Below the pieces are notes generated by a model. That model worked only from the letters and a program-made list of their open reading frames with translations. It made no database searches and had not been told where the DNA came from. From positions 3,596,001 to 3,660,000 of the forward strand of contig NZ_CP088294.1 of assembly GCF_024666525.1 (NCBI RefSeq): a stretch of DNA of 64,000 bases, read 5' to 3'. Numbering within the stretch: position 1 is the stretch's first letter; each line of letters begins with the position of its first letter. The position numbers and the translations under genes are program-made. This stretch comes from Pseudomonas sp. J452. GTDB taxonomy: Bacteria; Pseudomonadota; Gammaproteobacteria; Pseudomonadales; Pseudomonadaceae. Below are positions 18,955-64,000 of the stretch, one piece after another.

Positions 18955-18966
18955 GCACGCGTTTGC

Positions 18967-19068: not shown

Positions 19069-19099
19069 TGGCCGTGCATGCATTCTGGGCGCTGTGTCG

Positions 19100-33535: not shown

Positions 33536-33548
33536 CGTCTTCTACCTG

Positions 33549-34790: not shown

Positions 34791-34869
34791 GTGAGAACTC
34801 CGCCAGATTGGATTTACGAATGGGCGGAGTCTGCGACGCTGAGTTACACACGACGAATCGATCAATTCG

Positions 34870-37441: not shown

Positions 37442-37460
37442 AATGATAAGAATTATCATT
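37442..37460 (+). promoter_or_regulatory. Fur box upstream of the ECF sigma gene
   Basis: AATGATAAGAATTATCATT is a near-perfect palindrome (17 of 19 positions) matching the inner Fur consensus. It lies 34 bp upstream of the sigma-factor ATG and marks the locus as iron-repressed. Confidence 0.88.
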
Positions 37461-37494
37461 AAGATGCGCATCACCGTGCAGCCGAGGACAGGCT

Positions 37495-38061
37495 ATGGGA
37501 AGGTTATTCACATTGCAGGAGCAGGGCTCAGTAGCGACAACGCTACTTGAGGGTGCTTCGTCTGAGCCGCTGGAGCAGCTCTATCACGGTAGTCATCGCA
37601 GTCTGGTGGATGCCGCCCAGGCGCTACTGGGTTGCCGCGCGCGGGCCGAGGACGTGGTCCAGGATGCCTTTCTCAAACTCTGGGAAAGTGGCGATCAGCA
37701 TGCCATCCAGGAACCTATCCGCTACCTGTTCCGCATGGTGCGTAACCTGGCTATCGACCGCCTGCGTCGCCTGGCTCTGGAAGGCCGCTATCGCTTCGAC
37801 GAGGAGCCGCTGGACGAGCTGCCAGCGCCGCAATCCACCCCGGAACAGGCCGCTTTTGGCGAGCTGGAATGGCAGCGCATGCACCAGGCGATCGGCGAGC
37901 TACCCGAGCGCACCCGCACCGTGTTCACCATGAGCCAGCTGGAAGGTTACAGCCAGCGCGAAGTGGCCAGCCACCTGAATGCCTCGCCCACCCTGGTGCA
38001 TTTCCTCCTGCGCGATGCCCTGACCCATTGCCGCAGCCGCCTCGGTTTCGAGGCGGCGTGA
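37495..38061 (+). CDS. Iron-regulated ECF sigma factor (PvdS-like)
   Basis: A 188-aa ECF-type sigma factor. Region 2 is RAEDVVQDAFLKLWESGDQ ... YLFRMVRNLAIDRLRR (about residues 49-95). Region 4 is LPERTRTVFTMSQLEGYSQREVASHLNASPTLVHFLLRDAL (about 142-182). It is preceded by a Fur box and followed by the siderophore exporter and NRPS genes, so it most likely drives the siderophore locus under iron starvation, as PvdS does for pyoverdine. No anti-sigma (FecR-like) gene is adjacent, and the receptor lacks a signalling domain, again like PvdS. Confidence 0.88.
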   Translation: MGRLFTLQEQGSVATTLLEGASSEPLEQLYHGSHRSLVDAAQALLGCRARAEDVVQDAFLKLWESGDQHAIQEPIRYLFRMVRNLAIDRLRRLALEGRYRFDEEPLDELPAPQSTPEQAAFGELEWQRMHQAIGELPERTRTVFTMSQLEGYSQREVASHLNASPTLVHFLLRDALTHCRSRLGFEAA

Positions 38062-38093
38062 CGCTCACCGTCGAGCACTCTGGAATCGATTGA

Positions 38094-39782
38094 ATGAAAC
38101 TGCTCAACCTGCTGTTCCGTGACAACCGCCTGCCATTCGCCGGCATCATCGTACTGAGCCTGTGCAGCGCCTTGCTCAGCATCGGCGTGATCGCCTTCGT
38201 CAACTGGCGCTTGATCGGCTTGCAGAGCGATCTGGGCAGTGCCCTGGCGACCTTCCTAGGCCTGCTGGTGCTGCTGCTGATCTGCGCCGCCGCCGGGCAG
38301 ATCTCCCTACACCGTCTGGGTCACGCCTTCGTCTACCGCCTGCGCCGCAGCCTGGTCGGGCGGGTGATGAACACCGATATCGAGCGCCTGGAACGCATCG
38401 GCGGGGCGCGCATCCTGGCCAGCCTGGCCAGCGACATCCGCAACATCACCATCGCTTTCGTTCATCTGCCGGAACTGGTCTACGGCCTGATCCTCAGCCT
38501 GGCCGCCTTCGCCTTCCTGGCCTGGCTGTCGCCATCGCTGTTCGGCATCACCATTTCCTGGCTGACCCTGACCCTGGTGGTGGGCTGGTTGCTGGTGGGC
38601 AAGGTCAACCGCCATGTCCGCCTGCTGCGCGAGGCCGAGGACCACCTGTACCAGGACTACCAGGCGATCATCGACGGGCGCAAGGAGCTGGCACTCAACC
38701 GCGACCGCGCGCGCCTGCTGTTCGACGAGGAATTCGACCGCGATGCCCGCGCCTACCGCGACCACGTCACCCGCGCCGACATCTACAACGGCCTGGCCGG
38801 CAACTGGGCCAACTGCATGGTGCTGGGCAGCATCGGCCTGGTGTTTTTCTGCGCCAGCGGCCTGGGCTGGGCGACCAGCTCGGTGGCCGCAACCTTCGCC
38901 CTGACCGTGCTGTTCCTGCGTGCACCACTGGTGTCCAGTGTCGCCGCGCTGCCGGCGCTGCTCGCCGCACGCATCTCGCTGGACAAGCTGGAAGCGCTGG
39001 AACTGGCCCCGGAGCACAGCACCGAGGCGATCAGCCCGCTGGGCGACTGGCAACAGTTGCAGCTGTGCGGCCTGGAATACCGTTATCCGGGGGAGGGTGG
39101 CGATGCCGGTTTCGATGTAGGCCCGGTCGACCTGCAGTTGCGCCGTGGCGAATTGGTCTTCCTGGTCGGCGGCAACGGCAGTGGCAAGTCCACTTTCGCC
39201 CGCCTGCTCACTGGCCTGCATCGCCCGCTAGCCGGTGAAATACGCCTCGATGGCCAAGCCCTGACGGCCGAGCAATGGCCGGCCTACCGCCAGCTGTTCG
39301 GCAGCGTCTTCACCGACTTCCATCTGTTCGCCCGTCTGCTCGGTCCGCAGGGCGGCGAGGTGCCGGAGTCGCTGGTCGGGCAATGGCTGGATCGCCTGCG
39401 CCTGGCGCACAAGGTGCGTTTCGCCAGCGGCCGTCTGGCCGATACACGCTTCTCCCAGGGCCAGCGCAAGCGCCTGGCGCTGATGCTGGCGATGCTGGAA
39501 GGGCGCGACATCCTGGTGCTCGACGAATGGGCGGCCGACCAGGACCCGCTGTTCCGTCGCCTGTTCTACCGCGAGCTGTTGCCGCAGCTCAAGGCTGCCG
39601 GCAAGACCATCATCGCTATCACCCACGACGACCACTATTTCGACCAGGCCGACCGCCTGCTGAAAATGGATGGCGGCCGCCTGTACGAGCTGAGTGGCCA
39701 GGCCCGCGAACGCGCCACCCGCGACGCGGTGCTGGAAATCGGCGGCAGCGCCAAGCCCGAAGCAGTCGGCGCCCCCCTGTGA
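38094..39782 (+). CDS. PvdE/SyrD-type siderophore ABC exporter
   Basis: A 562-aa fused permease-ATPase of the cyclic/siderophore peptide transporter family. Six hydrophobic segments lie in residues about 15-300. The ATPase domain has Walker A GGNGSGKST (about 361-369), the signature FSQGQRKRLAL, Walker B ILVLDEWAADQDP and the switch ITHDD. PvdE is about 550 aa and moves the pyoverdine precursor into the periplasm; here the cargo is presumably the NRPS product. It begins 32 bp after the ECF sigma gene, so the two are probably co-transcribed. A terminator follows. Confidence 0.9.
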   Translation: MKLLNLLFRDNRLPFAGIIVLSLCSALLSIGVIAFVNWRLIGLQSDLGSALATFLGLLVLLLICAAAGQISLHRLGHAFVYRLRRSLVGRVMNTDIERLERIGGARILASLASDIRNITIAFVHLPELVYGLILSLAAFAFLAWLSPSLFGITISWLTLTLVVGWLLVGKVNRHVRLLREAEDHLYQDYQAIIDGRKELALNRDRARLLFDEEFDRDARAYRDHVTRADIYNGLAGNWANCMVLGSIGLVFFCASGLGWATSSVAATFALTVLFLRAPLVSSVAALPALLAARISLDKLEALELAPEHSTEAISPLGDWQQLQLCGLEYRYPGEGGDAGFDVGPVDLQLRRGELVFLVGGNGSGKSTFARLLTGLHRPLAGEIRLDGQALTAEQWPAYRQLFGSVFTDFHLFARLLGPQGGEVPESLVGQWLDRLRLAHKVRFASGRLADTRFSQGQRKRLALMLAMLEGRDILVLDEWAADQDPLFRRLFYRELLPQLKAAGKTIIAITHDDHYFDQADRLLKMDGGRLYELSGQARERATRDAVLEIGGSAKPEAVGAPL

Positions 39783-39785
39783 ACT

Positions 39786-39820
39786 GAAGCCCGCAGCGCC
39801 TGCGGGCGCGGGCTTCGTTC
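39786..39820 (+). terminator. Terminator after the ABC exporter gene
   Basis: Stem GAAGCCCGC/GCGGGCTTC with inner GC pairing and a short T-rich tail (GTTCGTCCGTTTTC). It starts 3 bp after the stop. Confidence 0.75.
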
Positions 39821-39838
39821 GTCCGTTTTCTGCATTTA

Positions 39839-39856
39839 AATGAAAACTATTCGCAC
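39839..39856 (+). promoter_or_regulatory. Fur-like box upstream of mbtH
   Basis: AATGAAAACTATTCGCAC matches the pattern AATGATAATTATTCTCAT at 14 of 18 positions. It overlaps the sequence TTTAAATG (39835-39842), which also precedes the TonB receptor gene. This is the start of a second transcription unit (mbtH, thioesterase, NRPSs). Confidence 0.55.
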
Positions 39857-39910
39857 TGATATACGTCTTTAAAGCGAGCCGTTTCGATCGGCATCTGCGA
39901 GGTACTGAGA

Positions 39911-40114
39911 ATGAGCCTGGACAATCCGCAAACCACCTTCCTGGTGGTGATCAATGAAGAACAGCAATACGCCATCTGGCCGGCCTACAAGGCTGTACCG
40001 GCTGGCTGGCAGGACATCGGCGTGCGCGGCGACAAGCCGACCTGCCTGGCGCATATCGCCAGCGTCTGGACCGATATGCGCCCGCGCAGCCTGCGTGAGG
40101 CGATGGACGCCTGA
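39911..40114 (+). CDS. MbtH-like NRPS accessory protein
   Basis: A 67-aa MbtH family protein that binds and activates NRPS adenylation domains. Family residues are present: FLVVINEEQQYAIWP, VPAGW, CLAHIASVWTDMRP. GAGGT precedes the ATG. Its stop overlaps the thioesterase start by one base (TGATG). It is first in the NRPS transcription unit. Confidence 0.95.
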   Translation: MSLDNPQTTFLVVINEEQQYAIWPAYKAVPAGWQDIGVRGDKPTCLAHIASVWTDMRPRSLREAMDA

Positions 40115-40839
40115 TGCAGCTGTTCTGCCTGGCTCATGCCGGTGCCAGCGCCATGGCCTATGCGCGCTGGCGTCGGCGCCTGCCGCGCTGGCTGGATGTC
40201 TGTCCGCTGGAGCTACCAGGCCGCGGTGCGCGCCAGCAGGAACCGCTGTGCCAGGACCTGCCGGCAATGCTCGCCGACCTCATGGCCTCCTGGCGGCGCG
40301 AGTGCAGCGGCCCTTATCTGCTGTGGGGCCACAGCCTCGGCGGCTTGCTCGCCTATGAGCTGGCCCATGCGCTGATCGGCGCCGGGCAGAACGCGCCACT
40401 GGCGCTGTTCGCTTCCGCCTCGCGCGCGCCGTCGCTGCGCGCCCAGGCACCACGTCTGGCGCAGCGTAGCGATGGCGAGCTGTTGTCGCGCCTGGCCGGC
40501 TTCGCCCGTTTGCCGCGGGAACTGCTGGCCGACCCGTTGTTTCGCGGCGAGATGCTGCCGGTGCTGCGCAGCGATTTCGCCCTGGCCGAAGGTTATCGCT
40601 ACCAGCGTCGTGCGCCGCTGCCCTGTGCCCTGCATGTGCTGGGCGCGCGCCACGACAGCCTGAGCGAAGAAGACCTGCGCGCCTGGCGGCGTGAAACCCG
40701 CAGTGCTTTCACCCTGGAGTGGCTGGAGGGCGATCACGCCTACCTGCGTCCCCAGGAAGACGAGTTGCTGTCCCTGATCGAATTCCATGCCTTGCGCCTG
40801 TTGCGGCGCGAGGCGGCCGGTGCGCCCCTGAGCGCCTAG
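40114..40839 (+). CDS. Type II thioesterase
   Basis: A 241-aa alpha/beta-hydrolase of the external (type II) thioesterase family, which removes mis-primed acyl groups from NRPS carrier domains. The oxyanion segment (LAHAGASAMAY), the nucleophile elbow GHSLGG (Ser about residue 75) and the terminal histidine motif EGDHAYLR are visible. It is translationally coupled to mbtH and lies 24 bp upstream of the first NRPS. Confidence 0.93.
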   Translation: MQLFCLAHAGASAMAYARWRRRLPRWLDVCPLELPGRGARQQEPLCQDLPAMLADLMASWRRECSGPYLLWGHSLGGLLAYELAHALIGAGQNAPLALFASASRAPSLRAQAPRLAQRSDGELLSRLAGFARLPRELLADPLFRGEMLPVLRSDFALAEGYRYQRRAPLPCALHVLGARHDSLSEEDLRAWRRETRSAFTLEWLEGDHAYLRPQEDELLSLIEFHALRLLRREAAGAPLSA

Positions 40840-40863
40840 GCCAATGCCTGCGAGGTAGTGTTG

Positions 40864-43800
40864 ATGAACGCGCAAACCGAGTGCCAGCCCGTTGCCGCCC
40901 AGCAATGGGCGCCGCTGTCCTTCGCCCAGCAACGGCTGTGGTTCTTCAGCCGCCTGGAAAGCGGTAGCACGGCCTACAACATCGGCGGTGTGCTGCGCTT
41001 CGCCGGCGAGCTGGACATGGACAGTCTGCGCCACGGCCTGGATCAGGTGTATGCCCGCCACGCCGCGCTGCGCACCGTGTTCCGCGAGCACGACGGCCTG
41101 GCCCAGCAGGCCGTGCTGCCGACCGGCCCGATGCCGCTGGAAATCATCGACCTCGAAGGTAACGCCGAGCAGGTCGAGGCCCTGGCGCGCGACTTCATCG
41201 AGGCCGACTACGACCTCACCCGTGGCCCGCTGGTGCGCTGCGCCCTGTACCGCCTGGGCGAGAACAGCCACGCCCTGGCCGTGGGCATGCACCACATCAT
41301 CTCCGACGCCTGGTCGGTACGCGTGCTGGTGGAGGAGATGGCCGAGTTCTACCGCGCTCGCCAACAGAACCGCCAGCCGTTCATGACTCCGCAGCCGCTG
41401 CAGTACAGCGAGTACGCCATTGGCCAGCGCGAGTGGCTGGACAGTGAGGCTGGTATCCAGCAGATGGCGTTCTGGCGCGAGCGCCTGGGCGGCGAGCAAC
41501 CGCCGCTGAGCCTGACACCTGACTACCCGCACAATGCCCAAGCCGCGCGCCGTGCAGCCTATCGCCCGCTGCAGGTGGAGCCGGCTCTGGTGGCGCGTCT
41601 CAGCGACCTGGCCAAGGCCAATGGCGCGACCCTGTTCACCGTACTGCTGGCGGCCCTGCAACTGCAGCTGGCGCGTCTGTCCGGCCAGCGCGAGGTGCGC
41701 ATCGGCGTACCGGTGGCCGGTCGTGCCAAGGGTTTCGAGCGCCTGGTCGGTTTCTTCGTCAACACCCTGGTGCTCAAGGCCGAGCCACGTCCCGAGCAAT
41801 CGGTGGCGGATTGGTTGAGCCAGGCCCGCGCAGGTCTGAAACAGGCCCAGGCCAACCAGGCAATGCCCTTCGAGCGCCTGGTCGAGGAGCTGGCGCCGAG
41901 CCGTAGCCTGGGCCAGCAGCCGCTGTTCCAGGTGGCCTTCAACTACCGTCGGCAACATCCGCTGGCGGCCAACTGGCTGCCCGGTATCGAGACCCAGCTG
42001 GCCGAGCTGCCGTCCAGCCAGATTCCCTTCGACCTGGCCCTGGATGCGGTGCGCGACCGTGGTGATGAGCTGCTGATCAACTTCGCCTATGCCGCCGACC
42101 TGTTCGCCGAGAACAGCATCGAACGGCTGATCGCCGGTTTCCTTGAAGTGCTTGACGGTTTTGCCAGTGCACCGCAGGCAGCGCTGGGTGAAGTGGCGCT
42201 GGTCACCGCACCGGAGCTGGCGCAGCTGACCGAGTGGAACACGCCGCGTCAGCCCTTCGATGCTTCGCGTCTGCTGCCCGAGCTGATCGCCGAGCAGGCG
42301 CGGCTGCGCCCCGATGCCGTTGCCCTGGTGCATGGCGGTGAACGAATTGCCTTCGCAGAGCTGGAGGCCCGCGCCAATCGCCTGGCCAATTTGCTGGTAG
42401 CCCACGGTGTGCAGCCTGAGTCGCGTGTCGGCGTCTCGCTGCAGCGCGGCAACGCGATGATCGTGGCCATGCTGGCGGTACTGAAATCCGGCGGCGCCTT
42501 TGTCCCGCTCGACCCGGATTATCCGCGCGAGCGCCTGAGCTATATGGTCGAGGACTCGGGGTTGCAGTGGCGGATCACCAGTTCCGATCTGGCCGAGCGC
42601 CTGCCGCTGGGCGAGGGCGTTGAGCCGCTGTATCTGGATCAACTGGATCTGTCTGCCTTTGCGGCCTCGGCTCCAGTCGTCCAGCTGCATCCGCTCAATC
42701 TGGCCTACCTGATCTACACCTCCGGCTCCACCGGCCAACCCAAGGGCGTGGCGGTCAACCACCTCGGCCTGAGCATGCATGTGCAGACCATCGGCCAGCG
42801 CTATGGCATGACCCCGGACGATGTCGAGCTGCACTTCGCCTCGATCAGCTTCGACGGTGCCCTGGAGCGCTGGACCGTACCGCTGGCCTTCGGCAGCCGC
42901 CTGGTGATCCGCGACCAGGAGCTGTGGAGCGCGGAGAAGACCTGCCAGGTGATCGCCGCCGAAGGCGTGACCATCTCCTGCCTGCCACCGAGCTATGCCC
43001 AGCAACTGCTGGACTGGGTCGAGTCGCAAGACCTGAAACTGCCGGTGCGCTCCTGGACCCTGGGTGGCGAAGCCTTTACCCGCGAGACCTACGAGCGCCT
43101 GCAAAAGGTGCTGCAGCCGCAACGCATCATCAACGGCTACGGCCCGACCGAGACAGTCGTCACGCCGCTGATCTGGGAAGCCTATCCGGGCGACAGTTTC
43201 GAAGCCGCCTACGCTCCTATCGGCAACCCGGTCGGTCCACGCAGCCTGTATGTGCTGGATGCTGAGCTGAACCTGCTGCCCATCGGCGTGGCTGGCGAGC
43301 TGTATATCGGTGGCGAAGTCGGCCTGGCCCGTGGCTACTTCCAGCGCCCCGAGCTGACTGCCGAACGTTTCCTGCCCGATCCGTTCGGTGCCGCCGGCGA
43401 GCGTATGTACCGCACCGGCGACCTGGTGCGCTGGCGTGAAGACGGCACCCTGGACTACCTGGGCCGGGTCGACCATCAGGTGAAGATTCGCGGTTTCCGT
43501 ATCGAACTGGGCGAGATCGAGAGCCAGTTGCTGGCCCTGGATGGCGTGCAGGAAGCGGCGGTAATCGCCCGCGAGACCCCGACCGGCAAGCAGTTGGTGG
43601 GTTATGTCGTTGCCAAAGGCGGCGCCGACAGCAGTGTGCTGCGCGCCGAACTGGCCAAAGTATTGCCGGACTATATGGTCCCGGCGCAGATCATCGCGTT
43701 GGAAAAACTGCCGCTGACCCCGGCCGGCAAGCTGGACCGCGCCGCGCTGCCCGAGCCGACCTGGCACAGCCAGTCCTACGAAGCCCCGCAGACCGATAAC

Positions 43801-46800
43801 GAACGCATCCTCGCCGCCATCTGGGCCGAAGTGCTGGGTGTCGAGCGGGTAGGGCGCCAGGACCATTTCTTCGAGCTGGGTGGCGACTCCATCGTTGCCT
43901 TGCAAGTAGTCAGTCGTGCTCGCCAACAGGGCCTGGGCCTGACGCCAAAGGACCTGTTCCAGCAGCAGACCCTTATGCAATTGGCCGGCGTAGCCCGCAG
44001 CGTCGCTGCACCGCTGGCCGATCAAGGCCCGGTAACCGGTGCCGCGCCGCTGCTGCCGATCCAGGCGCGATTGCTTGAGCGCGAAGGCCTGGCACCGTGC
44101 AACCAGTACCTGCTGCTGGAGCTGGCCGAGCCGTTGCCGGCCGCCCAGCTGGAGCAGGCCCTGCAAGCACTGAGCAAACATCACGATGCCCTGCGCCTGC
44201 GTTACAGCCAGGCCGATGGCCAGTGGCAGCAGGTCCATGCCGCCAGCGAAGACGCCGCTCTGCTGCAGGTGGCCGAACTGGCCGCCGGCGAAGCCGCTCA
44301 GGCTCATTACGACGCTCTGCAACGCAGTCTCGATCTGACCAACGGCCCGCTGTTGCGTGGCCTTTACCTGAGCCTACCGGACCAGCCGGATCGGCTGCTG
44401 CTAAGCATCCACCACCTGGTAGTGGACGGCGTGTCCTGGCGCGTGCTGCTGGAAGACTTGCAGCGCGCCTGCCTGCAGCTGGCCAGCGGCCTGCCGGTAC
44501 AGCTGCCGGCCAAGACCAGCGCCTTCAAGAGCTGGGGCGAGCGCCTGGCTGGCTGGAACGTGGACGCGCAACTGCCGTACTGGCAGGCCCAGCAAACGGC
44601 TGGTGGTGAGCTGCCGCTGCTGAGCAGCGAAACCGGCCGCGAAGGCAGCCGCGAGCGCCTGGAGCTGAGCCTGGAGGCCGGCTTCACCCGCGAGCTGCTG
44701 CACGCCGGCCAGCAAGCCTACCGCCTGCGCGCCGACGAGCTGTTGCTGACCGCGCTGAGCCGTGTGCTATGTGCCTGGAGCGAGCAACCGGCGCTGACCG
44801 TGCACCTGGAAAGCCATGGCCGTGCGCCGCTGTTCGACGATATCGACCTGTCGCGCAGTGTTGGCTGGTTCACCAGCCTCTACCCCGTGCGCCTGCAGCC
44901 CGACGCCGAGCTGGCTGTCAGCCTCAAATCGATCAAGGAGCAGCTGCGCGCCGTGCCCGATCTGGGCCTGGGTTTCGGCCTGCTGGCCCGGAGTGGCCAA
45001 CTGAGCGAGCGCGCACCGCAACTGCTGTTCAACTACCTGGGCCAGTTCGACGAGGGCGACAGCGCCCTGCGCCTGGTCGAAGGCGGCCTGTGGCGCGAAG
45101 CCGAAGCGCCGCTGGATGCGCCGCTGGTGATCAACGCCGAGCAGCGCGGCGGTGCCTTGCATCTGCACCTGGACTTCAACCCGCAGCAGCTGGCCCGCAC
45201 GACCCTGCAAGGCCTGCTGAGCCGTCTGCAGGATGAGCTGCACGCCATCCACACCCATTGCCAGAAGGCCCCCCGCAGCCTGACCCCCAGCGACGTACCG
45301 CTGGTCGGCCTGAGCCAGGTCGAGCTGGATGCGCTGGTCGGCGTGGAAGACATCCATCCGTTGTCGCCGCTGCAGCAGGGGCTGCTGTTCCACAGCCAGC
45401 TGGAAGGTGCCGGCAGCTACGTCAGCCAGCTGCTGCTGCCGTTTACCGGCCTCGACCCTGTGCGTCTGGAAAACGCTTGGCGCCAGGTACTAGCCCGTCA
45501 TGGCGTGCTTCGCAGCCGCTTCCTGCTCGGCGAACGTCCTCTGCAACTGGTACAGACCGATGTTGCGCTGGACTGGCAGAGCCTCGACTGGCGCGCGCAG
45601 CCCGACTTCGACGCCGCGCTGCAAGACTTCTGCAGCGCCGAGCGCGAACGCGGCTTCGATCTGCAACAAGCGCCGCTGCTGCGCCTGGCACTGATCCAGC
45701 GCGGCGTGGGCGACTTCGTGCTGGTCTGGACCCTGCACCACCTGCTGCTGGATGGCTGGAGCAACGGCCTGTTGTTTGCCGAAGTGCTGACCCTGTATCA
45801 CGGCGACCGCCTGCCGGCGCCGAGCAGCCAATTCCGCGACTATATCGGCTGGCTCGATGGCCAGGATGCGGCTGCCGAACAGGCCTTCTGGCGTGAACAG
45901 CTAGCCCCGCTGGACGGCGCCACCCGCATCGCCGGCTGCCTGCCGTGCCGCGCACCGGGGCAGGGCCATGCCCGCCATCCGTTGCCGCTGGATGCCTCCA
46001 CCGAACAACAAATTCGCAGCTTCGCCCAGCGTCAGGGCCTGACCCTCAACACCCTGGTGCAGGCCGCCTGGGCCTTGCTGCTGGCGCGTCTGACCGGCAA
46101 GCGCAGCCTGTGCTTTGGCGCCACCGTGGCTGGTCGCCCGACCGAGCTGGCTGGCAGCGAGCAGATGCTCGGCTTGTTTATCAACAGTCTTCCCGTTGCC
46201 GTGCAGTTGCCGGCCGAGCAGACATTGGGCGACTGGTTGGCCGCGCTGCAGGTGCAGAACCTGCAGCTGCGCGAGCACGAACACAGCCCGCTGCACGATA
46301 TCCAGCGTTGGGTTGGCAGTGCCGGCGAGGCACTGTTCGACAGCCTGCTGGTATTCGAGAACTACCCTCTGGGCGACGCCCTCAAGCAGGCCGAGCGCGG
46401 CGAGCTTCGCTTAGGGCTGCCGCAAAGCTATGAGTTCACCCATTACCCGATGACCCTGGCCGTGCTGCCGGGCAGCCGCCTGGAACTGCTGCTGGCCTAC
46501 GACCGCGCACACTTCGATGCCGCCGGCATCGTCCAGGTCGAGGCGCTGCTGCGCCAGGCCCTGCAACTGGTGTGCGGTGACCCGGCCCAGCCGCTGGGCA
46601 GCCTGGCACTGGTTGGCGAGGCCGAGCAGTTCCTGCTGGGCGAGTGGAATAAACCACGGCAGGGCTTTGATGCCCGCCGTTTGCTGCCCGAGCTGATCGC
46701 CGAGCAGGCGCGCCTGCGTCCGGATGCCATCGCCCTGGTGCATGGCAGCGAGCAGATTGCCTTCGCCGAGCTGGAAACCCGTGCCAACCGTCTGGCCAAT

Positions 46801-54600: not shown

Positions 54601-57041
54601 TGACCCCGGCCGGCAAGCTGGATCGCGCCGCGCTGCCCGAGCCGACCTGGCAGAGCCAGAGCTACGAGGCGCCGCAAACCGACAACGAACGTATCCTCGC
54701 CGCCATCTGGGCCGAAATACTCGGTGTCGAGCGAGTAGGGCGACAGGATCACTTCTTCGAACTGGGCGGCGACTCCATCGTCGCCCTGCAGGTGGTCAGC
54801 CGCGTGCGCCAACAGGGACTGCAACTGGCGCCGCGCGAGTTGTTCCAGTTCCCGCGCTTGGCTGAGCTGGCCAAGGTCGCGCGCCTGGCAGGAGCGGAGG
54901 AAGTGCAGGGGCCGGTAACAGGCCCGCTGCCGCTGGCGCCGATCCAGGCGCATTTCTTCGCCATGGGCCAGGCCAATCCCGCGCACTGGAACCAGGCGCT
55001 GAATCTGGAGCTGCTGCGCCCGCTCGATCCGCAGTTGCTGGAACAGGCGCTGCAGGCCCTGGTCGCTTACCACGACGGCCTGCGTCTGCGTTTCAACCAA
55101 GAGCAGGGTGCCTGGAAGCAGCACTACGCCGAAGTGAACACCGATCAGCCACTGCTATGGCTACGCGAGGCTGGCAACGATGCCGAAGCCGAGCAGCTTT
55201 ACCTGCAGGCCCAGCAGAGCCTCGATCTGGCCAACGGCCCGCTGCTGCGCGCGCTCTACCTCAAGCAGGCCGGCCAGCCGGAACGGCTGCTGCTGGCCGT
55301 GCACCACCTGGTGGTCGACGGTGTGTCCTGGCGCATCCTGCTGGAGGACATTCTCGCCGCCTATCGCCAGCTGGAAGCCGGGCAGACGCCGCGCCTGCAG
55401 AGCAAGAGCCAGTCCTACAAGGCCTGGAGCGAAGCGCTGCAGGGCTGGGCTGGCAGCGAGTCCGCCCAGCGCGAGCTGGATGCCTGGTGCAGCCGCCTGA
55501 GCGGCCCGGCCATGCCGTTGCCGCGCGAGCTGGATGGTGACACTGCGAGCCATGGCGACAAGCGCGAAGTACGCCTGGCTCTGGATGCCAGCGAGACCAA
55601 GCGCCTACTGCAGGCGCCGGCGCAGCTGGGCGTGCGCATCGACGCGCTGCTGCTCAGCGCGCTAACCCGTGCCCTGTGCCGCTGGAGCGGCCAGCCGGGC
55701 CTGCGGGTCAACCTCGAAGGCCATGGCCGCGAGGCGCTGGCCGCCGAGCTGGACCTGTCGCGCACGGTTGGCTGGTTCACCAGTCTGTATCCGCTGCAAC
55801 TGCCGCGACTGGACGATCCGCAGCAACAGCTGCAGCGCGTGCAGCAGCAGCTGGAGCAGATCGAGCATGGCGGCCAGGGCTATGGCGTGTTGCGCTGGCT
55901 GGGCTCGGCCGAGGTGCAAGCGGCGCTGGCCGGACTGCCGGCTGCCGACGTCACCTTCAACTACCTGGGCCAATACCAGGCCGGCGCGGCGGCGGACTGG
56001 TTCCGCCCGGCCGGCGGTGGCGGTGTGGCGGTGGCGGCGGACAACCCGCTGGCCAGTCGCCTGGGGGTGAATGGCCAGGTGTTCGACGGCCAGTTGCAGT
56101 TGTCCTGGGAATACGCGGTCACCCAGTACAGCGCGGCGACCATCGAAAACCTTGCGGCAGCCTATCGCCAGGAGCTGCTCGGCCTGCTGGAGCTGGCTCG
56201 CGGCCAGGCCGTGCAAGGGCCATCGCCCTTGCTGCGCCTGACCCGCCAGGCTGCAGCACCGGCGCCGGTGTTCTGCCCGCACCCGGTCACCGGCCGGGTC
56301 ACCGGCTACCAGCCGCTGGCCGCACGCCTGGACGGTGCGCGTGATGTTTTTGGCCTGCAGTGCCGCAGCTTCCTCGATCCGGCCTGGCGCGATGCCTCGC
56401 TGGGCGAGATGGCCGATTCCTACCTGGCCGCGCTGCTCAAGCAGCAACCGCAGGGGCCGTACCGTTTGGTCGGCTGGTCGCTGGGAGGCAGCCTGGCCCT
56501 GGAGCTGGCCGCACGCCTGGAGGCCCGTGGTCATGAAGTGGCCTTCCTCGGCCTGCTCGATTGCTACGTGCCGGGCACCGAGATCGCCGGTGACGATGCA
56601 CGCCATCCGCAGGCCCGCGCCAAGCTCGGCGAGCACCTGCAACTGCTCGCTCCGGAATTGCCGGCCAAGGCCTGGGACAGCCTGTTCGAGCGCCTGCTGC
56701 AGCTGGAACCGCTGGACTGGCCGCAGGCCTGCGGCGCCTGGTTCGCCGGCCAGCCGCTGGACGCCATGACCCGCCAGAGTCTGGAGGAGCTGCTGTTCGC
56801 CTGGGCGGTGGAGCAGCATATGCGCCGCCTGTGCACCGGTTACGCGCTGCCCCAGGTCAAGGTGCGCCCGCACTGCTGGTGGGCGGCGCAGCCGGCTGGC
56901 CGCGCCGCGTTGTTGGAGTCGGGACTGGAGCAGGTGCAGGGCAGGGCGGCGGCCCATCGCCTAGTGGACACCGATCACCAGGGCATCGTCCGTCATGCGC
57001 AGGTACTGCAGGAGTTGGCAGCGCTGCTGCGGCCGGAATAA
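51654..57041 (+). CDS. Terminal NRPS module, C-A-T-E-TE
   Basis: 1795 aa from GTG 51654, which overlaps the TGA of the first NRPS (GTGA). The frame is open far upstream, but that part is antiparallel to coding sequence of the first NRPS and lacks domains. Order: a short helical N-terminus, C (HHIVSDG at 177, LCL-like), A (TSGSTG near 652; same pocket residues DGECTGGVTK as A1 and A2), T (Ser1041), E (HHLVVDG at 1217), and a C-terminal thioesterase with GWSLGG (Ser1609) and His1775. The TE should release a linear or cyclised tetrapeptide. The E domain directly before the TE predicts a D-configured C-terminal residue. Confidence 0.93.
53157..54806 (+). repeat. A-T coding repeat, copy 3 (module 4)
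   Basis: Third copy, in the second NRPS gene. The offset from copy 2 is 6476 bp at both ends tested, so no net indels. More synonymous differences than between copies 1 and 2 are visible by eye. Confidence 0.88.
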
Positions 57042-57106
57042 ACAAAATTTTCAGTTTTTTCTAAATTTCGCCGGCGCTGGATCGTCTAGTAGAGACACAT
57101 AGTTTA

Positions 57107-57124
57107 AATGCGAATTCTTCTGAT
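57107..57124 (+). promoter_or_regulatory. Fur-like box upstream of the TonB receptor gene
   Basis: AATGCGAATTCTTCTGAT matches AATGATAATTATTCTCAT at 14 of 18 positions and is preceded by TTT, giving the same TTTAAATG as upstream of mbtH. It lies 22 bp upstream of the receptor ATG. Confidence 0.5.
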
Positions 57125-57146
57125 TTGATTTAACGGGGAGTAGTTG

Positions 57147-59336
57147 ATGGAACAGCAGTCGAAACACCTGGCCCGCGCGCCGTTCGCCAAAGCACGTCTG
57201 CCACTGGCCATGGCCTGTGCGCTGAGCGCCGTTTGCTTTGCCGCGCACGCCGAAGAGCAAGTGCTGGAGCTGGGTGCGACCAACATCAGCGGTGAGCTGG
57301 ACAGCCCGGTTGGCGAAGACCAGGGCTACGTGGCGAAGAACAGCCGCAGCGCCACCAAGATCAACACTCCCCTGAGTGAAACTCCGCGTTCGGTGTCGGT
57401 GGTGACCCAGGCGCAGATGGACGATCGCAATGTGCAGACCATCAGCCAGGCCCTGCAGTACTCCGCAGGCGTACAAGCCGGCTTCTATGGTGAAGACAAC
57501 AAGCAGGACTGGTTCATCATCCGTGGCTTCAAACAGGCCAACAACGGCCTGTTCATGGATGGTTCGCGCATCTACTCCAGCGCCTTCTACAGCTGGCAGA
57601 TCGACCCCTACATGCTCGAGCGCATCGAAGTGCTCAAGGGCGCCTCATCCGTGCTCTACGGCCAGACCCCGCCCGGCGGCCTGATCAACCTGCAGAGCAA
57701 GCGCCCGACCGCCGAAGGTAAGAACGAAGTCGGCGTGCAGTACGGCAGCTTCGAGCGCAAGCAGATCAACGCCGACGTCGGCGGCAAGCTGGATGAAGAG
57801 GGCAACCTGCTGTACCGCGTGGTCGCCCTGAGCCGCGACACCGGCACCCAGGTCGATGACGTGGACGCCGCGCGCATCCTGCTGGCGCCGTCGATGACCA
57901 TCAACTTCAACGACGACACCTCGCTGACCCTGCTGGCCAGCATGCAGAAGGATCGCTCCGATCCGCAGCTGCAGTTCCTGCCATCCAGCGGCACCATCAG
58001 CCACAACCCGAATGGCGATATCGACACCGATACTGCCGTTGGCAATCCCCAGTACGAGACGTTCGAACGCGACCAGTACACCCTGGGCTATGAGCTCAAC
58101 CATCGCCTCAGCGACAACTGGGACTTCCAGCAGAACCTGCGCTACGGTCACATGGACCTGGAACTGCGCCAGCTGTTCTTCTACGGCAACCTCAGCGACC
58201 GTGTGATCAACCGTGGTCTGACCTATAACGACGGCAAGGCCGACAACCTGTCGGTAGACAACCGTCTGCTCGGCAACTGGTTCGGTGATCGCTGGGAAAA
58301 CACCTTGCTGCTTGGTTTCGACTACCAGCAGCTGAAGATCAATGATCGCAGCCCCAACGGCTATCCGAACTTTGGCGTGATCCCGCCGCTGGACATTTTC
58401 AATCCCGGCAACAACACGCCGATCTTTGGTGTCCCGGTCGGTAATGACGCGCCTATCGGTGACTTCGCCCTGGAAGACAAGGACACCCGCGCCGACCAGA
58501 TGGGCTACTACGTCCAGGAACAGTTCAAATACGACAATTGGGTGTTCCTGCTTGGCGGCCGTTTCGACAAGTCCCGTACTGACTTCGATAACCAGACCAC
58601 TGGTGCCGGCCACAATGTGCGTGACGAGGACTTCACCTGGAGCGGTGGTGTCGCCTACGTCTTCGACAATGGCGTGACTCCATATGCCAGCTACTCGGAA
58701 TTCTTCCTGCCGGTAACCGACCTGAATACCACGGTCACGCCGAACAAACCCTTCGAGCCAGAGACCGGCAATCAGAAGGAAATTGGTATCAAGTACCAGC
58801 CAGTGGGTCTGGACGCGATGTTCACTGCGGCTGTATTCGAGCTGACACAAGAGAACGTCAAAAAATACAACGCCGGTACTTATGTGCAGCTCGGCGAGGT
58901 TCGCAGTCGCGGTATCGAACTGGAGGCGCAGGCCAATGTCACCGAGAACGTCAGCCTGATCGCCAGCTATACCAAGCTCGACCCGGAAATCACCAAGACT
59001 ACAAACCCGGCAGAGAAAGGCCAGGCCCCGGCCAACATCGCCGACGAAATGGCTTCGCTGTGGGCCAACTACAAGGTCCTTGGCGGCCCGCTCGATGGTC
59101 TGGCTTTCGGTGGTGGCGTGCGCCACACCAGCTCCAGCTACGGTGACAACACCGAGACCCTGGAAGTGCCGTCCTTCACCCTGCTCGATGCCATGGTCAG
59201 CTACCAGATCCAGGACGTGCGCCTGCAGCTCAACGCCAACAACCTGACCGACAAAGAGTACGTCGCGGCCTGTGACTACTACTGCTGGTACGGCAACCGT
59301 CGCAACATCATCGCCAGTGCTACCTATGAGTTCTAA
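57147..59336 (+). CDS. TonB-dependent ferric-hydroxamate siderophore receptor (FhuA-like)
   Basis: A 729-aa outer-membrane receptor. ATG 57147 follows GGGGAG; an upstream TTG is less likely. A signal peptide (PLAMACALSAVCFAAHAEE) is followed by a plug domain (TPLSETPRSVSVVTQAQMDD ... FIIRGFKQANNGLFMDG ... IEVLKGASSVLYGQTPPGG), then a 22-strand barrel ending YEF. The terminal CDYYCWYGNRRNI is characteristic of FhuA/FoxA-type hydroxamate receptors. There is no N-terminal signalling (STN) domain, so it is not a transducer for the ECF sigma factor. It is the expected importer of the siderophore made by the neighbouring NRPSs. Confidence 0.93.
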   Translation: MEQQSKHLARAPFAKARLPLAMACALSAVCFAAHAEEQVLELGATNISGELDSPVGEDQGYVAKNSRSATKINTPLSETPRSVSVVTQAQMDDRNVQTISQALQYSAGVQAGFYGEDNKQDWFIIRGFKQANNGLFMDGSRIYSSAFYSWQIDPYMLERIEVLKGASSVLYGQTPPGGLINLQSKRPTAEGKNEVGVQYGSFERKQINADVGGKLDEEGNLLYRVVALSRDTGTQVDDVDAARILLAPSMTINFNDDTSLTLLASMQKDRSDPQLQFLPSSGTISHNPNGDIDTDTAVGNPQYETFERDQYTLGYELNHRLSDNWDFQQNLRYGHMDLELRQLFFYGNLSDRVINRGLTYNDGKADNLSVDNRLLGNWFGDRWENTLLLGFDYQQLKINDRSPNGYPNFGVIPPLDIFNPGNNTPIFGVPVGNDAPIGDFALEDKDTRADQMGYYVQEQFKYDNWVFLLGGRFDKSRTDFDNQTTGAGHNVRDEDFTWSGGVAYVFDNGVTPYASYSEFFLPVTDLNTTVTPNKPFEPETGNQKEIGIKYQPVGLDAMFTAAVFELTQENVKKYNAGTYVQLGEVRSRGIELEAQANVTENVSLIASYTKLDPEITKTTNPAEKGQAPANIADEMASLWANYKVLGGPLDGLAFGGGVRHTSSSYGDNTETLEVPSFTLLDAMVSYQIQDVRLQLNANNLTDKEYVAACDYYCWYGNRRNIIASATYEF

Positions 59337-60324: not shown

Positions 60325-60490
60325 CAAGGGCTGCTGTCTGGCCTGCAAGAGACTGTCGCTTGGTATGTATACACAAGATGAGTCGCGCTTAACGCGGCCG
60401 CTGACTGATGAGGTTGGGCAAGGCGAGTGCCGTTCCGCCATAGGACCCACTTGACCTTCACACGAGCCATTCGCGGGATCGGTGCCTGAC

Positions 60491-61789
60491 ATGAGCATAG
60501 AAACGTTGGAATACGATGTAATCGGCCTGGGCTTCGGCCCGGCCAACCTGGCCATTGCCGTGGCCCTCGACGAAGACCGCCGCACGCGCGAGCAGGGTGG
60601 TTTGCGTTATTGCTTCCTGGAGAAGAAACCGGCCTTCGAATGGCACGGTGGCATGCTCCTGGAAGACAGCCGCATGCAGATTTCCTTCCTCAAGGATCTG
60701 GCTACCCTGCGCAACCCGGCCAGCCGCTTCACCTTCGTCCACTACCTGCACCAGAAGGGGCGCCTGGCGTCCTTCATCAACGTCGGCACCTTCACGCCGT
60801 CGCGCCTGGAGTACAACGACTACCTGGGCTGGGCCGCCGCCCAGTTCAGCGACCGCGTGCACTATGGCGAGGAAGTCATCGGCGTCGAGCCGGTGCTCGA
60901 TGGCAGCGACGTGACCCGGGTCAAGGTGATCTCGCGCCTGGCCGACGGCCGCACCCGTGCGCGCATCACCCGTAACCTGGTGGTCAGCATCGGCGGTGAG
61001 CCGGTGGTGCCCGAGGCGTTCCGCCCGCTCAAGGGCGATGCGCGCGTCATGCATTCGTCCGGCTACCTGGAGCGTATCCACGCCTGCGGCGAACCCAAGC
61101 GCCTGGCAGTGCTGGGTTCTGGGCAGAGCGCGGCGGAGATCTTCAGCGACCTGTGCGGCCGCTACCCGCAGGCCGAAGTCTCGCTGGTGATGCGCAGCCA
61201 GGCCCTGCGTCCGGCGGACGACAGCCCGTTCGTCAACGAGATCTTCGATCCGGCCTATACCGACGTGGTCTACGGCCAGTCCTCGGAGGAGCGCGAGGCG
61301 TTTATCCAGGCCAACGCGCAGACCAACTACTCGGTGGTCAACCTGGACCTGATCGAGAGCATCTATCACCGCCTGTACCTGCAGAAGGTCACCGGCCATG
61401 CGCCGCACAGCCTGCTGACGCAGCGCAGCATCGAAGCGGTGGAGGCGGGTGCCGAGGGCATTCGCCTGACACTGAGCGGTCCGCAGGGTGTGGAAGAGCG
61501 TCTGTACGATGCTGTGGTGTTGGCCACCGGTTATCGCCGCGACGGCTACAAGCGCCTGCTCGGCGGATTGGCCGAGCACCTGGGCGAAGGCGTCGAGCGC
61601 GACTATCGCCTGTGCTGCCAGCCGCACATGAGCGCCGGCATCTACCTGCAGGGCTGCTGCGAGTCCAGTCATGGCCTCAGCGACACGCTGTTGTCGGTGC
61701 TGGCGATACGTTCGCAGGAAGTGGTCGACGCTTTGTTGGATAATCGCCGCCACCGACACACCCAAGGAGTCGCCAGCGCATGCGCCTGA
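60491..61789 (+). CDS. L-ornithine N5-monooxygenase (PvdA-like)
   Basis: A 432-aa FAD- and NADPH-dependent N-hydroxylase that makes N5-hydroxyornithine, the first step to hydroxamate siderophores. It has the FAD motif GLGFGPANLA near residue 11, the substrate/flavin segment MQISFLKDLATLRNPASRFTF, the NADPH motif VLGSGQSAAEIF, and the C-terminal ATGYRRDGYKRLLG. Similarity to PvdA favours ornithine over lysine. The start is uncertain: GTG 60482 has a closer GGGA ribosome site, while ATG 60491 gives the more usual N-terminus. The preceding 60325-60490 shows no clear Fur box. FhuF follows after 16 bp. Confidence 0.92.
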   Translation: MSIETLEYDVIGLGFGPANLAIAVALDEDRRTREQGGLRYCFLEKKPAFEWHGGMLLEDSRMQISFLKDLATLRNPASRFTFVHYLHQKGRLASFINVGTFTPSRLEYNDYLGWAAAQFSDRVHYGEEVIGVEPVLDGSDVTRVKVISRLADGRTRARITRNLVVSIGGEPVVPEAFRPLKGDARVMHSSGYLERIHACGEPKRLAVLGSGQSAAEIFSDLCGRYPQAEVSLVMRSQALRPADDSPFVNEIFDPAYTDVVYGQSSEEREAFIQANAQTNYSVVNLDLIESIYHRLYLQKVTGHAPHSLLTQRSIEAVEAGAEGIRLTLSGPQGVEERLYDAVVLATGYRRDGYKRLLGGLAEHLGEGVERDYRLCCQPHMSAGIYLQGCCESSHGLSDTLLSVLAIRSQEVVDALLDNRRHRHTQGVASACA

Positions 61790-61805
61790 CCCTGGCGGGG
61801 GGCCG

Positions 61806-62555
61806 ATGATTCCGGCCATTGCCCCGCTGTTCCAAGGGCCTTTCGCCCACTACCGCGATGTTCTCACCCTTGCGGATGACCCACGCCCGGCACTGTCCGG
61901 GCGTGAGTTTGTCAGCGCCGAACGTCTGCAAGAGCAGATGCTGCGCTTCGCCCCCGAGTACGCCGAAGGCGATCGCCGGGCGCTAATGTCGCTGTGGTCC
62001 AAGTACTACTTCCTGCGCCTGATTCCGCCGGTACTGGCTGCCGGGCTGATCCTCAACTGGCGCCTGCCGCTGGATTTCGACGAGATCCAGGTGGTGGTCG
62101 GCGCCGACGGCCTGCCCGAGGCGTTCAAGCTGCCGCACGCCGGCGAGCGCTGGAGCAGCGCGCCGGCCAATGGTTTCGAGCGCTTCTCCGGGCTGCTGGA
62201 CGACAACCTGCTGCCTTTCATCGACGCCCTGCGCAGCCATCGCAAGATCGCCGCACGGGTGCTGTGGAGCAACGCCGGCAACTACTTTGAGTGGTTCATG
62301 AGCACCCTCGGCGGCCTGCCGTTCCCCAAGCCGATGCTGGCCCAGGGCTTCGAGGTGCTGGAAAGCAAGCTGCGCCCCGACGGCAGCCGCAATCCGCTGT
62401 GCGAACCGGTGCTCTACGTGCCCCAGGGCGAGGGCTGCGCGCCCTGGCGGCAACGCAAGCTGTGCTGCATCCGCAACGAGCTGGGTATGGCGATGTGCGA
62501 CAACTGCCCGCTGCTGGAAGAGCCGCCGGCGGAAGGGGTAGCCGTGCTGGACTGA
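61806..62555 (+). CDS. FhuF-like siderophore-iron reductase
   Basis: A 249-aa protein of the ferric iron reductase FhuF family, predicted to release iron from hydroxamate siderophores in the cytoplasm. A GGGGGG ribosome site precedes ATG 61806. The C-terminal [2Fe-2S] cysteine motif is present (KLCCIRNELGMAMCDNCPLL), spaced CC-X9-C-X2-C, one residue shorter than the CC-X10-C-X2-C I recall for E. coli FhuF. FhuF_N-type features include SKYYFLRLIPPVLAAGLIL. It ends the plus-strand tailoring genes and is convergent with the permease gene. Confidence 0.87.
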   Translation: MIPAIAPLFQGPFAHYRDVLTLADDPRPALSGREFVSAERLQEQMLRFAPEYAEGDRRALMSLWSKYYFLRLIPPVLAAGLILNWRLPLDFDEIQVVVGADGLPEAFKLPHAGERWSSAPANGFERFSGLLDDNLLPFIDALRSHRKIAARVLWSNAGNYFEWFMSTLGGLPFPKPMLAQGFEVLESKLRPDGSRNPLCEPVLYVPQGEGCAPWRQRKLCCIRNELGMAMCDNCPLLEEPPAEGVAVLD

Positions 62556-62579
62556 TGCCATGGGCGAGCAGCATCTGTC

Positions 62580-62638
62580 GTAGCCCGGATGCAATCCGGG
62601 ACACAGGCGGCTCGGCTCCCGGATTGCATCCGGGCTAC
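62580..62638. repeat. REPIN, GTAGCCCGGATGCAATCCGGG family
   Basis: Inverted pair as at 8626-8684, between the convergent fhuF and permease genes. Confidence 0.9.
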
Positions 62639-62644
62639 AAATAT

Positions 62645-62698
62645 CGCTCGCTCCTACATGCATGGTTGGTTTGCGTAGGAGCGAGCTCTGCTCGCGAA
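62645..62698. repeat. REP pair, GTAGGAGCGAGC family
   Basis: GCTCGCTCCTAC and GTAGGAGCGAGCTCTGCTCG in opposite orientation. The second copy is the common Pseudomonas REP, related to the copies at 2681 and 251 (there GGAGCCAGC). Confidence 0.8.
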
Positions 62699-62705
62699 TA
62701 GCGGT

Positions 62706-64000
62706 TCAGCGCCGATACAGGCACAGCATGAAGTAGGCGCCGCCGAGCAGCGATGCCAGCAGCCCCGCCGGCAATTGCGCGGGGAACAGCAGGGTGCGCC
62801 CCAGCCAATCCGCCGCCACCATCACCAGCGCGCCGAGCAGCGCCGCACCGAGTAGTTGCGGCACGGCGCGGGCCAGGCCGAGCAGGCGCGCCAGGTGCGG
62901 CGCCAGCAGGCCGATAAAGCTCAGCGGCCCGACTATCAGGGTGGCGCCGGCGGTCAGCAGCGCTGCCAACAGCAACAGCACGAAGCGGCTGCGCCCTAGC
63001 GGCACGCCGAGGGCGCGCGGGGTGCCATCGCCCAGCGGCAGCAATTCCAGCCAGCGGCCGAAGGGCAGGGCAGCGACCAGCAGCACCAGGCTGCAGACCA
63101 GCACCCAGAGCGCCATCTGCGGACCGACGAAGTAGGTGGAGCCGGACATCCAGCCCAGCAGGTTCTGCCCGCGCGGATCGCCGCCGGCCAGCAGGATCAC
63201 CTGCAGGGCGTCGAACAGCGCGGTGATGCTGATGCCGATCAGCAGCACCCGTTCTGGGGCGAAGCCGGAGCGCCGCGACAGGCCAAGCAACAGCAGCAGG
63301 GTCAGTCCGGCGCCCAGGCCGCCCAATGCCAGCTGGGCCAGCGGCCCGGAGTAGGGCAGCAGGAACAACAGGGCGATCAGGCCCAGGGCGGCGCCGGCGC
63401 TGATGCCGAGCACCTCGGGGCTGGCCATCGGGTTGCCGGTCAGGCGCTGGATCATGCAGCCGGCCAGGGCCAGCATGCAGCCGGCGGCGGCCGCGGCCAT
63501 TACCCGCGGCCAGCGCCAGTCGAGCAGAGTTGCGTCGCCCAGACTCCACTGCCAGCCGTCCAGGCCGCGGCCCAGGCCGAGGGCGATCAGCAGCGCGCAG
63601 CCCAGCGCCACGCACAGCGGCAACAGACGCCTAAGCGGGAAGGGGTGACGAGTGAAGTGATGGCCGTCGCCACCGTGCGGCTGACCGCCGGCCAGGCGCA
63701 GGCGTGGCAGCAACCAGAGCAACAGCGGCGCACCGAACAGGGCGGTGGCGGCACCGGTGGGCACCAGCTCGGCCAGGGACCCGGCCAGGCGCTGAATGCC
63801 CAGGTCGGTGACGCTCAGCAGCAGGCCGCCGAGCAGCGGCGCCCAGCACAGGCGCTGGGCGAAGGTGCGCGCGCCGAGCAGACGCACCAGAGCCTGGGCG
63901 GCCAGGCCGATGAAACCGATCACGCCCACCGTGCTGACCACGCAGGCGGCCAGGTACACGGACAGAGTCAGGGTGACGAAGCGCAGCAAGCGCAGCGGCA
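62706..64000 (-). CDS. fhuB: FhuB-like ferric-hydroxamate ABC permease (5' part outside window)
   Basis: The frame stays open to the right edge. The visible 431 codons contain the end of one FecCD permease unit (LGARTFAQRLCWAPLLGGLLLSVTDLGIQR) and one complete second unit. The second unit has landmarks RVMAAAAAGCMLALAGCMIQRLTGNPMASPEVLGISAGAA and VGPLSFIGLLAPHLARLLG. Tandem duplication of the permease in one polypeptide is the FhuB architecture, so the full protein is expected at about 650 aa. It should import the ferric siderophore from the periplasm; FhuD/FhuC-like partners would be expected beyond the edge. A TTG at 63989 is not considered the start. Confidence 0.9.
   Translation of the reverse strand, partial: PLRLLRFVTLTLSVYLAACVVSTVGVIGFIGLAAQALVRLLGARTFAQRLCWAPLLGGLLLSVTDLGIQRLAGSLAELVPTGAATALFGAPLLLWLLPRLRLAGGQPHGGDGHHFTRHPFPLRRLLPLCVALGCALLIALGLGRGLDGWQWSLGDATLLDWRWPRVMAAAAAGCMLALAGCMIQRLTGNPMASPEVLGISAGAALGLIALLFLLPYSGPLAQLALGGLGAGLTLLLLLGLSRRSGFAPERVLLIGISITALFDALQVILLAGGDPRGQNLLGWMSGSTYFVGPQMALWVLVCSLVLLVAALPFGRWLELLPLGDGTPRALGVPLGRSRFVLLLLAALLTAGATLIVGPLSFIGLLAPHLARLLGLARAVPQLLGAALLGALVMVAADWLGRTLLFPAQLPAGLLASLLGGAYFMLCLYRR

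Follow-up and report, generated by a model that had tools for sequence, protein, structure and literature searches.

What would the siderophore locus of Pseudomonas sp. J452 produce, and how would the product be made, exported and taken up again? The locus lies in a stretch of 64,000 nucleotides (assembly GCF_024666525.1, contig NZ_CP088294.1, positions 3,596,001 to 3,660,000 of the forward strand), here called the window. By Pfam scan, positions 37442-64000 of the window form a single coherent siderophore locus holding all the genes that an earlier reading of the letters alone, the original prediction, had named. It is very probably a chromosomal amphibactin-type locus, with nonribosomal peptide synthetase (NRPS), export and uptake steps as proposed below. 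Its interpretation as a complete gene set for the synthesis, export and re-import of an iron-scavenging amphibactin-type lipopeptide is well supported. The best prediction of the product is N-acyl-D-AcOHOrn-L-AcOHOrn-L-Ser-D-AcOHOrn (AcOHOrn, N5-acetyl-N5-hydroxyornithine), with a calculated head group [M+H]+ of 622.304, and this prediction supplies masses to look for. For the acylated forms the calculated values are 804.471 (C12:0), 830.487 (C14:1), 832.503 (C14:0), 848.498 (3-OH-C14:0) and 858.518 (C16:1).

The assembly line and its predicted product

The synthetases are built of condensation (C), adenylation (A), thiolation (T), epimerization (E) and thioesterase (TE) domains, with the following coordinates.

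40864..51657, + strand: NRPS1, 3597 aa, C1-A1-T1-E1, C2-A2-T2, C3-A3-T3; 4 condensation-family, 3 A and 3 T domains (Pfam)
40906..42219, + strand: C1, presumed acylating first condensation domain (HHIISDAWS), from profile, tree and identity comparisons
42250..43749, + strand: A1, code DGECTGGVTK, AcOHOrn predicted; code from alignment, and A-domain tree
44044..45348, + strand: E1, epimerase of residue 1; TIGR01720 92.2 bits, cut-off 74.2
46699..48168, + strand: A2, code DGECTGGVTK; code from alignment, and A-domain tree
49819..51333, + strand: A3, code DVWHVSLIDK, serine; code from alignment
51654..57041, + strand: NRPS2, 1795 aa, C4-A4-T4-E4-TE, A4 code DGECTGGVTK; 2 condensation-family domains, A, T and TE (Pfam)

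The two genes overlap by 4 bases, and the family matches of NRPS1 lie far above chance, with E-values of 0 (condensation) and 4e-246 (AMP-binding). The four modules of the original prediction, C-A-T-E, C-A-T and C-A-T in the first synthetase and C-A-T-E-TE in the second, were recovered by Pfam together with TIGR01720, whose curated cut-off is passed by E1 and by E4 (84.7 bits) and which matches none of the four C domains. The C domain following E1 was placed in the after-E group of the C-domain tree. The active-site motifs are intact throughout, with the serine motif in all four T domains, G-x-S-L-G-G in the TE and the type II thioesterase, and HHxxxD in all six C and E domains.

Rereading the specificity residues from alignments returned the predicted pocket codes, DGECTGGVT(K) for A1, A2 and A4 and the serine code DVWHVSLID(K) for A3, the final K being supplied as the usual invariant residue. 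In the relatives, the A1, A2 and A3 codes hold wherever NRPS1 is full-length (12 of 12), allowing for V or I at a single A3 position; A4 was read in the window. The closely similar DGECTGGITK is named in the section of one paper that deals with ornithine-activating A domains (PMC12283262). In the A-domain tree, whose reference substrates come from codes and context and not from tested enzymes, A1, A2 and A4 group with the A domains of Azotobacter chroococcum and of three like clusters, beside the DGEACAGVTK domains of other siderophore-type clusters. Placement with a non-ornithine substrate had been named beforehand as a result that would overturn the prediction; the three domains were not found there.

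Amphibactins are described as combining a single serine with three ornithine residues and an acyl group of C14-C18 (PMC6836290). Codes and phylogeny predict OHOrn-OHOrn-Ser-OHOrn (OHOrn, hydroxyornithine) for the four modules, and an ornithine N5-monooxygenase and an N5-acyltransferase are both encoded in the cluster. As far as they can be judged from sequence, the features of an amphibactin system are thus all found here, the acyl tail excepted.

Orthology with the Azotobacter chroococcum cluster

The best plasmid match to module 1 is pAcX50f of A. chroococcum NCIMB 8003 (NZ_CP010421.1, 238171-262090), the sole one above 60% identity among 625 records. Its annotated order is sigma factor, ABC, MbtH, NRPS, NRPS, TonB receptor, GNAT and monooxygenase. 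It resembles the window in gene order, two-synthetase split, domain string, and Fur-box-like and CGTC upstream blocks, and the codes are the same except for V/L at one A3 position. Protein identities between the two are 61% for the sigma factor, 72% for the ABC protein, 69% for MbtH, 58% for the receptor, 64% for the GNAT enzyme and 66% for the monooxygenase. Those of the domains are 52% (C1), 79% (A1), 64% (E1), 67% (C2), 72% (C3), 81% (A3), 69% (C4), 58% (E4) and 72% (TE).

Three further clusters from other families of the order, G283, G145 and G382, share the architecture and the codes, except for V/I in A3. In the main C-domain tree (103 domains, A. chroococcum added, domains below 400 residues and the contig piece C71b excluded), C1, C2, C3 and C4 each form a clade of all five clusters, with support between 0.909 and 0.995 and the lowest value, 0.909, for C1. 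An earlier 103-domain tree had put one fragmentary domain within the C1 clade. The five-member C1 clade was found again, with support 96, in a tree of 38 of the 103 domains, the set used for the approximately unbiased (AU) test.

A. chroococcum makes vibrioferrin, amphibactins and crochelins according to a review (PMC7947814), and a genome report ascribes putative amphibactin production, previously reported, to an Azotobacter strain (PMC12282048). The synthetase in the window is therefore orthologous, position by position, to that of a known producer species. Because of the synteny and the orthology of C1-C4, the product is read as an amphibactin-class tetrapeptide, in line with the amphibactin-like tri-hydroxamate X-X-Ser-X of the original prediction, which the codes also support. 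The pAcX50f cluster itself was reportedly found responsible for the amphibactins of A. chroococcum by Zhang and colleagues in 2019.

The first condensation domain and the acyl tail

An acyl tail probably exists and may vary, and it is the least certain part of the prediction. Several observations on C1, the domain that would attach it, weigh against an acylated product. In a solved-structure search C1 was closest to LCL and DCL condensation domains (Txo1 267, TycC 199, PvdL 182 bits) and scored far lower against CDA1 (69), ObiF1 (69) and RzmA (65 bits), which we take to be the starter domains of the set. It matches the same stretch of an NRPS model as C3 and C4. In trees it stands beside the LCL group and apart from the bananamide starter domain, the sole and long-branched starter reference, and a joint clade of the two was not rejected (p-AU 0.41). 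Nor was an acyl-AMP ligase seen in the cluster. Against all four outside clusters, C1 is also the least conserved of the C domains (52 vs 67-72, 38 vs 48-49, 30 vs 36-40 and 29 vs 36-39%), so the tail may differ.

These properties would suit a synthetase in which C1 is inactive or attaches only a short acyl chain, releasing the same tetrapeptide as a free, hydrophilic trihydroxamate of [M+H]+ 622.304. C1 carries HHxxxDA in place of HHxxxDG in all 13 copies compared (the window and 12 relatives), a further point in favor of such a product. However, the A. chroococcum C1 also reads HHxxxDA and has no ligase annotated beside it, and the motif recurs in C1 of G283 and G145, with HHxxxDG in G382. 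Within the genus, moreover, C1 is 84-95% conserved over the 12 relatives, inside the range of the other domains (80-100%). Such a product without a fatty acyl tail is considered unlikely. A second alternative, in which an acylated precursor is deacylated later in the periplasm as pyoverdine is by PvdQ, is very improbable. The exporter is of PvdE type and the genome encodes one penicillin-amidase-family protein, yet this sole family match is not PvdQ, its 62 bits on the PvdQ model falling far short of the cut-off (950 bits); its best solved relative is a D-succinylase and its gene lies about 600 kb from the cluster.

A further proposal, less likely than not, is that amphibactin synthetases begin the lipid with a first C domain derived from the LCL type, mostly bearing HHxxxDA and separate from the classical starter-C lineage. 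Such a domain would change faster than the others and retune the tail between hosts, and the tail made in Aquipseudomonas might be short or even missing. If so, the siderophore would be diffusible instead of membrane-anchored.

Tailoring, export and uptake

The genes around the synthetases have the following coordinates.

38094..39782, + strand: PvdE-type cyclic-peptide/siderophore ABC exporter; TIGR01194 372 bits (cut-off 286), PRK10522 784 bits (cut-off 604)
39911..40114, + strand: MbtH-like protein; PF03621 1.5e-20
40114..40839, + strand: type II thioesterase; PF00975 9e-38
57147..59336, + strand: FhuA/FetA-type TonB receptor; PF00593, PF07715
59308..60324, start uncertain (open reading frame from 59272), + strand: GNAT N-acyltransferase for N5-hydroxyornithine, IucB-type Acetyltransf_8; PF13523 5e-54
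60482..61789, + strand: L-ornithine N5-monooxygenase; PF13434 1.5e-114
61671..62555, start uncertain, + strand: FhuF siderophore-iron reductase; TIGR03951 178 bits, cut-off 64
62706..64000, - strand: FhuB hydroxamate permease (FecCD), cut by the window edge; PRK10577.1-2 807 bits, cut-off 554

The + strand thus reads extracytoplasmic function (ECF) sigma factor, exporter, MbtH, type II thioesterase, NRPS1, NRPS2, receptor, acyltransferase, monooxygenase and FhuF, followed by FhuB on the - strand. Past the window edge FhuB is completed (671 aa), and genes for a periplasmic binding protein and an ABC ATPase come next. Profile matches bear out the adjacent monooxygenase, IucB-like acyltransferase, MbtH, type II thioesterase, PvdE-like exporter, FhuA-like receptor, FhuF and FhuB-like permease that had been predicted, and the exporter, FhuF and FhuB score above curated NCBIfam cut-offs. 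The best solved relative of the monooxygenase is the L-ornithine 5-monooxygenase 3s5w (430 bits), and that of the GNAT enzyme is SidF, a hydroxyornithine transacylase. The N5 acyl group, and hence its donor, would be acetyl by likeness to the A. chroococcum GNAT (64%). No signalling domain was found in the receptor by Pfam scan, and an Sfp-type phosphopantetheinyl transferase is present in the genome.

From these assignments a route can be proposed. Ornithine would be hydroxylated and then acetylated at N5 by the monooxygenase and the GNAT enzyme, and NRPS1 and NRPS2 would join AcOHOrn, AcOHOrn, Ser and AcOHOrn, with C1 adding a fatty acyl group to residue 1 and E1 and E4 turning residues 1 and 4 to the D form. 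The TE would release a linear acid, which the PvdE-type exporter would move out of the cell; the ferric form would return through the FhuA-type receptor and FhuB/D/C, and FhuF would reduce the iron.

Regulation

The regulatory features are these.

37442..37460, strand not given: Fur-box-like site aatgataagaattatcatt, 5' of the sigma factor gene, read from the sequence
37495..38061, + strand: ECF sigma-70 factor; Sigma70_r2/r4, TIGR02937 superfamily 83 bits, cut-off 43
39836..39870, + strand: putative ECF-sigma promoter GAAAAC-N16-CGTCTTT, 5' of mbtH, function inferred
57062..57087, + strand: putative ECF-sigma promoter TAAAT-N16-CGTCT, 5' of the receptor gene

Under iron limitation, Fur would release the sigma factor gene, and the conserved upstream blocks suggest that the sigma factor may then drive the mbtH-NRPS operon and the receptor gene. 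No equivalog above its cut-off was among the matches listed for the sigma factor (25 of 79), and a PvdS/FecI-like role is what we infer for it. The PvdS-type promoter pattern is TAAAT-N16-CGT, and the blocks in the window resemble it. Among 18 aligned upstream regions, 17 retain the Fur-box-like block with slight variation, A. chroococcum among them, and only L119 lacks it. CGTCT is invariant in all 18 in front of mbtH; in front of the receptor gene CGTC is invariant in all 18 and TAAATTT is found in 17, with TAAAT 16 bases 5' of CGTC. The receptor promoter motif occurs once in the window against 0.05 expected, and 5 of 100 shuffles reach one match. Genome-wide, WAAAT-N16-CGTCT is not enriched (5 matches vs 6 for a reversed control), and the mbtH site, with GAAAAC, falls outside that pattern. 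The motif alone therefore proves nothing, and only its conservation in place counts.

Distribution and genomic surroundings

The genome of the strain (4.86 Mb, one contig) gave seven condensation-family matches; six belong to the locus, and the remaining one is a weak partial match. No second NRPS cluster was thus found, and the genome lacks a pyoverdine synthetase. A search for an IucA/IucC-type synthetase likewise found none. The predicted amphibactin-class siderophore would thus be the only NRPS siderophore of a pseudomonad that has no other NRPS cluster and so no pyoverdine.

Of 102 loci from a scan of named genomes with the acyltransferase, 80 were retained. Sixteen of these (L008-L023) carry the same NRPS2, receptor, acyltransferase, monooxygenase, FhuF and exporter, and the other 64 are different loci. 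The 16 belong to the Aquipseudomonas/P. alcaligenes group: P. guryensis (placed in Aquipseudomonas by NCBI), P. ullengensis, P. subflava, P. fluvialis, three P. alcaligenes and nine further strains. NRPS2 is 86-91% identical in all of them, with only its second half covered in L014. NRPS1 is full-length in 12; it meets a contig end in two and has a broken frame in two. The broken frames, noted in L108 and L116, may have arisen during assembly from the similarity of the A-T units. FhuB lies beside the locus in 14 of the 16. The type II thioesterase has a full-length match in 12 and a partial one in 2, and was found neither in the remaining 2 nor in the A. chroococcum cluster. The gene 5' of the sigma factor is a zinc alcohol dehydrogenase common to 13 of the 16, so the site of the locus is mostly the same. 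The exporter was found at E 1e-150 in 5 of 115 genomes drawn as relatives, the strain's own included. A protein-database search returned mostly long NRPSs, with Aquipseudomonas guryensis among the added names.

No amphibactin cluster described for Aquipseudomonas or P. alcaligenes was met in the open-access literature at the terms searched. The papers place amphibactins in marine bacteria and A. chroococcum, and a chromosomal locus in 16 relatives of the P. alcaligenes group would widen that range.

Other loci and genes were noted as well. A second, distant locus type occurs in other Pseudomonas (L034, L039, L061 and similar), with relatives, 33-65% identical, of the exporter, receptor, acyltransferase, monooxygenase and FhuF. 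Beyond fhuBDC the strain's own genome (L178:5949-14892) holds contractile-tail-like genes, among them a DUF6519 protein with a beta helix and Baseplate_J. Two RND efflux operons lie near the siderophore locus, at 14651-23718 and 28971-34865; the first has two RND pumps and an outer-membrane factor and is presumably MuxABC-OpmB/MdtABC-like by its layout. At 25160-26649 a HipA-type protein with both HipA domains adjoins a small open reading frame; the two may form a HipBA toxin-antitoxin pair.

Concerted A-T units and an exchanged receptor

The locus offers two clean evolutionary cases, one of A-T units kept alike within an assembly line and one of a receptor exchanged apart from the neighboring monooxygenase gene. 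A1, A2 and A4 are mutually 93-94% identical in the window and 88-92% identical within A. chroococcum and within G283, whereas same-position A domains of the window and A. chroococcum are only 76-78% identical. The C domains show the opposite, with orthologues at 52-72% and C1, C3 and C4 of the window at 39-49% among themselves. The three A-T units (42250-44007, 46699-48429 and 53148-54893) thus evolve in concert, unlike the C domains. The alike DNA tract in the window covers both A and T of NRPS1 (approximately residues 450-1015) and dips between them. The A domains of G145 and of G382 are only 57-60% alike within one genome, so the homogenizing is not universal. In an A-domain DNA tree within the genus, A1, A2 and A4 formed one clade in none of 13 species sets, and species and modules were scrambled. 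The module labels of opposite-strand loci are unsure in that tree, and at least two of the automatically collected sequences, alcRU38D_A2 and HMWF032_A1, look like wrong captures. Since the tree is unreliable, only the identity profile of the window was used from the DNA, and the case for concerted evolution rests on the identity comparison.

The receptors of HMWF032, F2018 and BMS12 form one clade, 63-65% identical to the window receptor, and their monooxygenases group with different species. Each data set rejects what the other supports: the monooxygenase groupings fail on the receptor data (p-AU 3e-5 and 2e-49), as does the receptor grouping on the monooxygenase data (p-AU 7e-38). These values are optimistic since the groups were chosen after quick trees, and the monooxygenase tree has some weak branches. 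The data indicate exchange of a receptor allele (57147-59336; L008, L011, L016) among species, separate from the monooxygenase gene. Receptor differences peak at approximately residues 366-438 (38-41%), perhaps a surface loop.

Comparison with known systems

The pyoverdine system shares a PvdE-type exporter, an MbtH protein, an ECF sigma factor and an ornithine hydroxylase homologue with the locus. PvdL, by contrast, is missing, since no further NRPS cluster exists in the genome; no search was made for chromophore genes.

The original prediction had raised the possibility that a hydroxamate cluster described in the P. mendocina group is the same one. Both come from the same bacterial family, and hydroxyornithine and serine are predicted for both. 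The marinobactin/formomarinobactin clusters (Ectopseudomonas mendocina ymp and the P. lutea group) also have a sigma factor, an ABC exporter and a receptor. According to two papers, however, they make six residues, include Dab and Asp-type residues and begin with an acyl-AMP ligase; the ymp cluster is described as a six-residue marinobactin-type cluster or as identical to one, its ligase start being stated by one of the papers (PMC13037486, PMC10165715). With its four modules, and with no ligase seen in it, the window locus differs in architecture; the two are not the same, and the chance of identity is negligible.

The amphibactin systems of Vibrio neptunius (abs/abt) and Alcanivorax, likened here by description only, also use three ornithine-derived residues and serine (PMC6836290, PMC11183961, PMC8573110). 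In V. neptunius, as in the window, the receptor gene (abtA) comes after the synthetase genes (absE-absF), and the amphibactin genes have Fur-box-like sites (PMC8573110). The V. neptunius genes from abtC to absA are reported to share one long transcript, whereas the window locus is headed by a sigma factor gene. The A. chroococcum cluster is on a plasmid and the window locus is chromosomal; the latter has a type II thioesterase and adjoining fhuF and fhuBDC, unlike the former, and the C1 domains are just 52% identical. The locus of Pseudomonas sp. J452 is a new example of the known amphibactin kind and not a new system.

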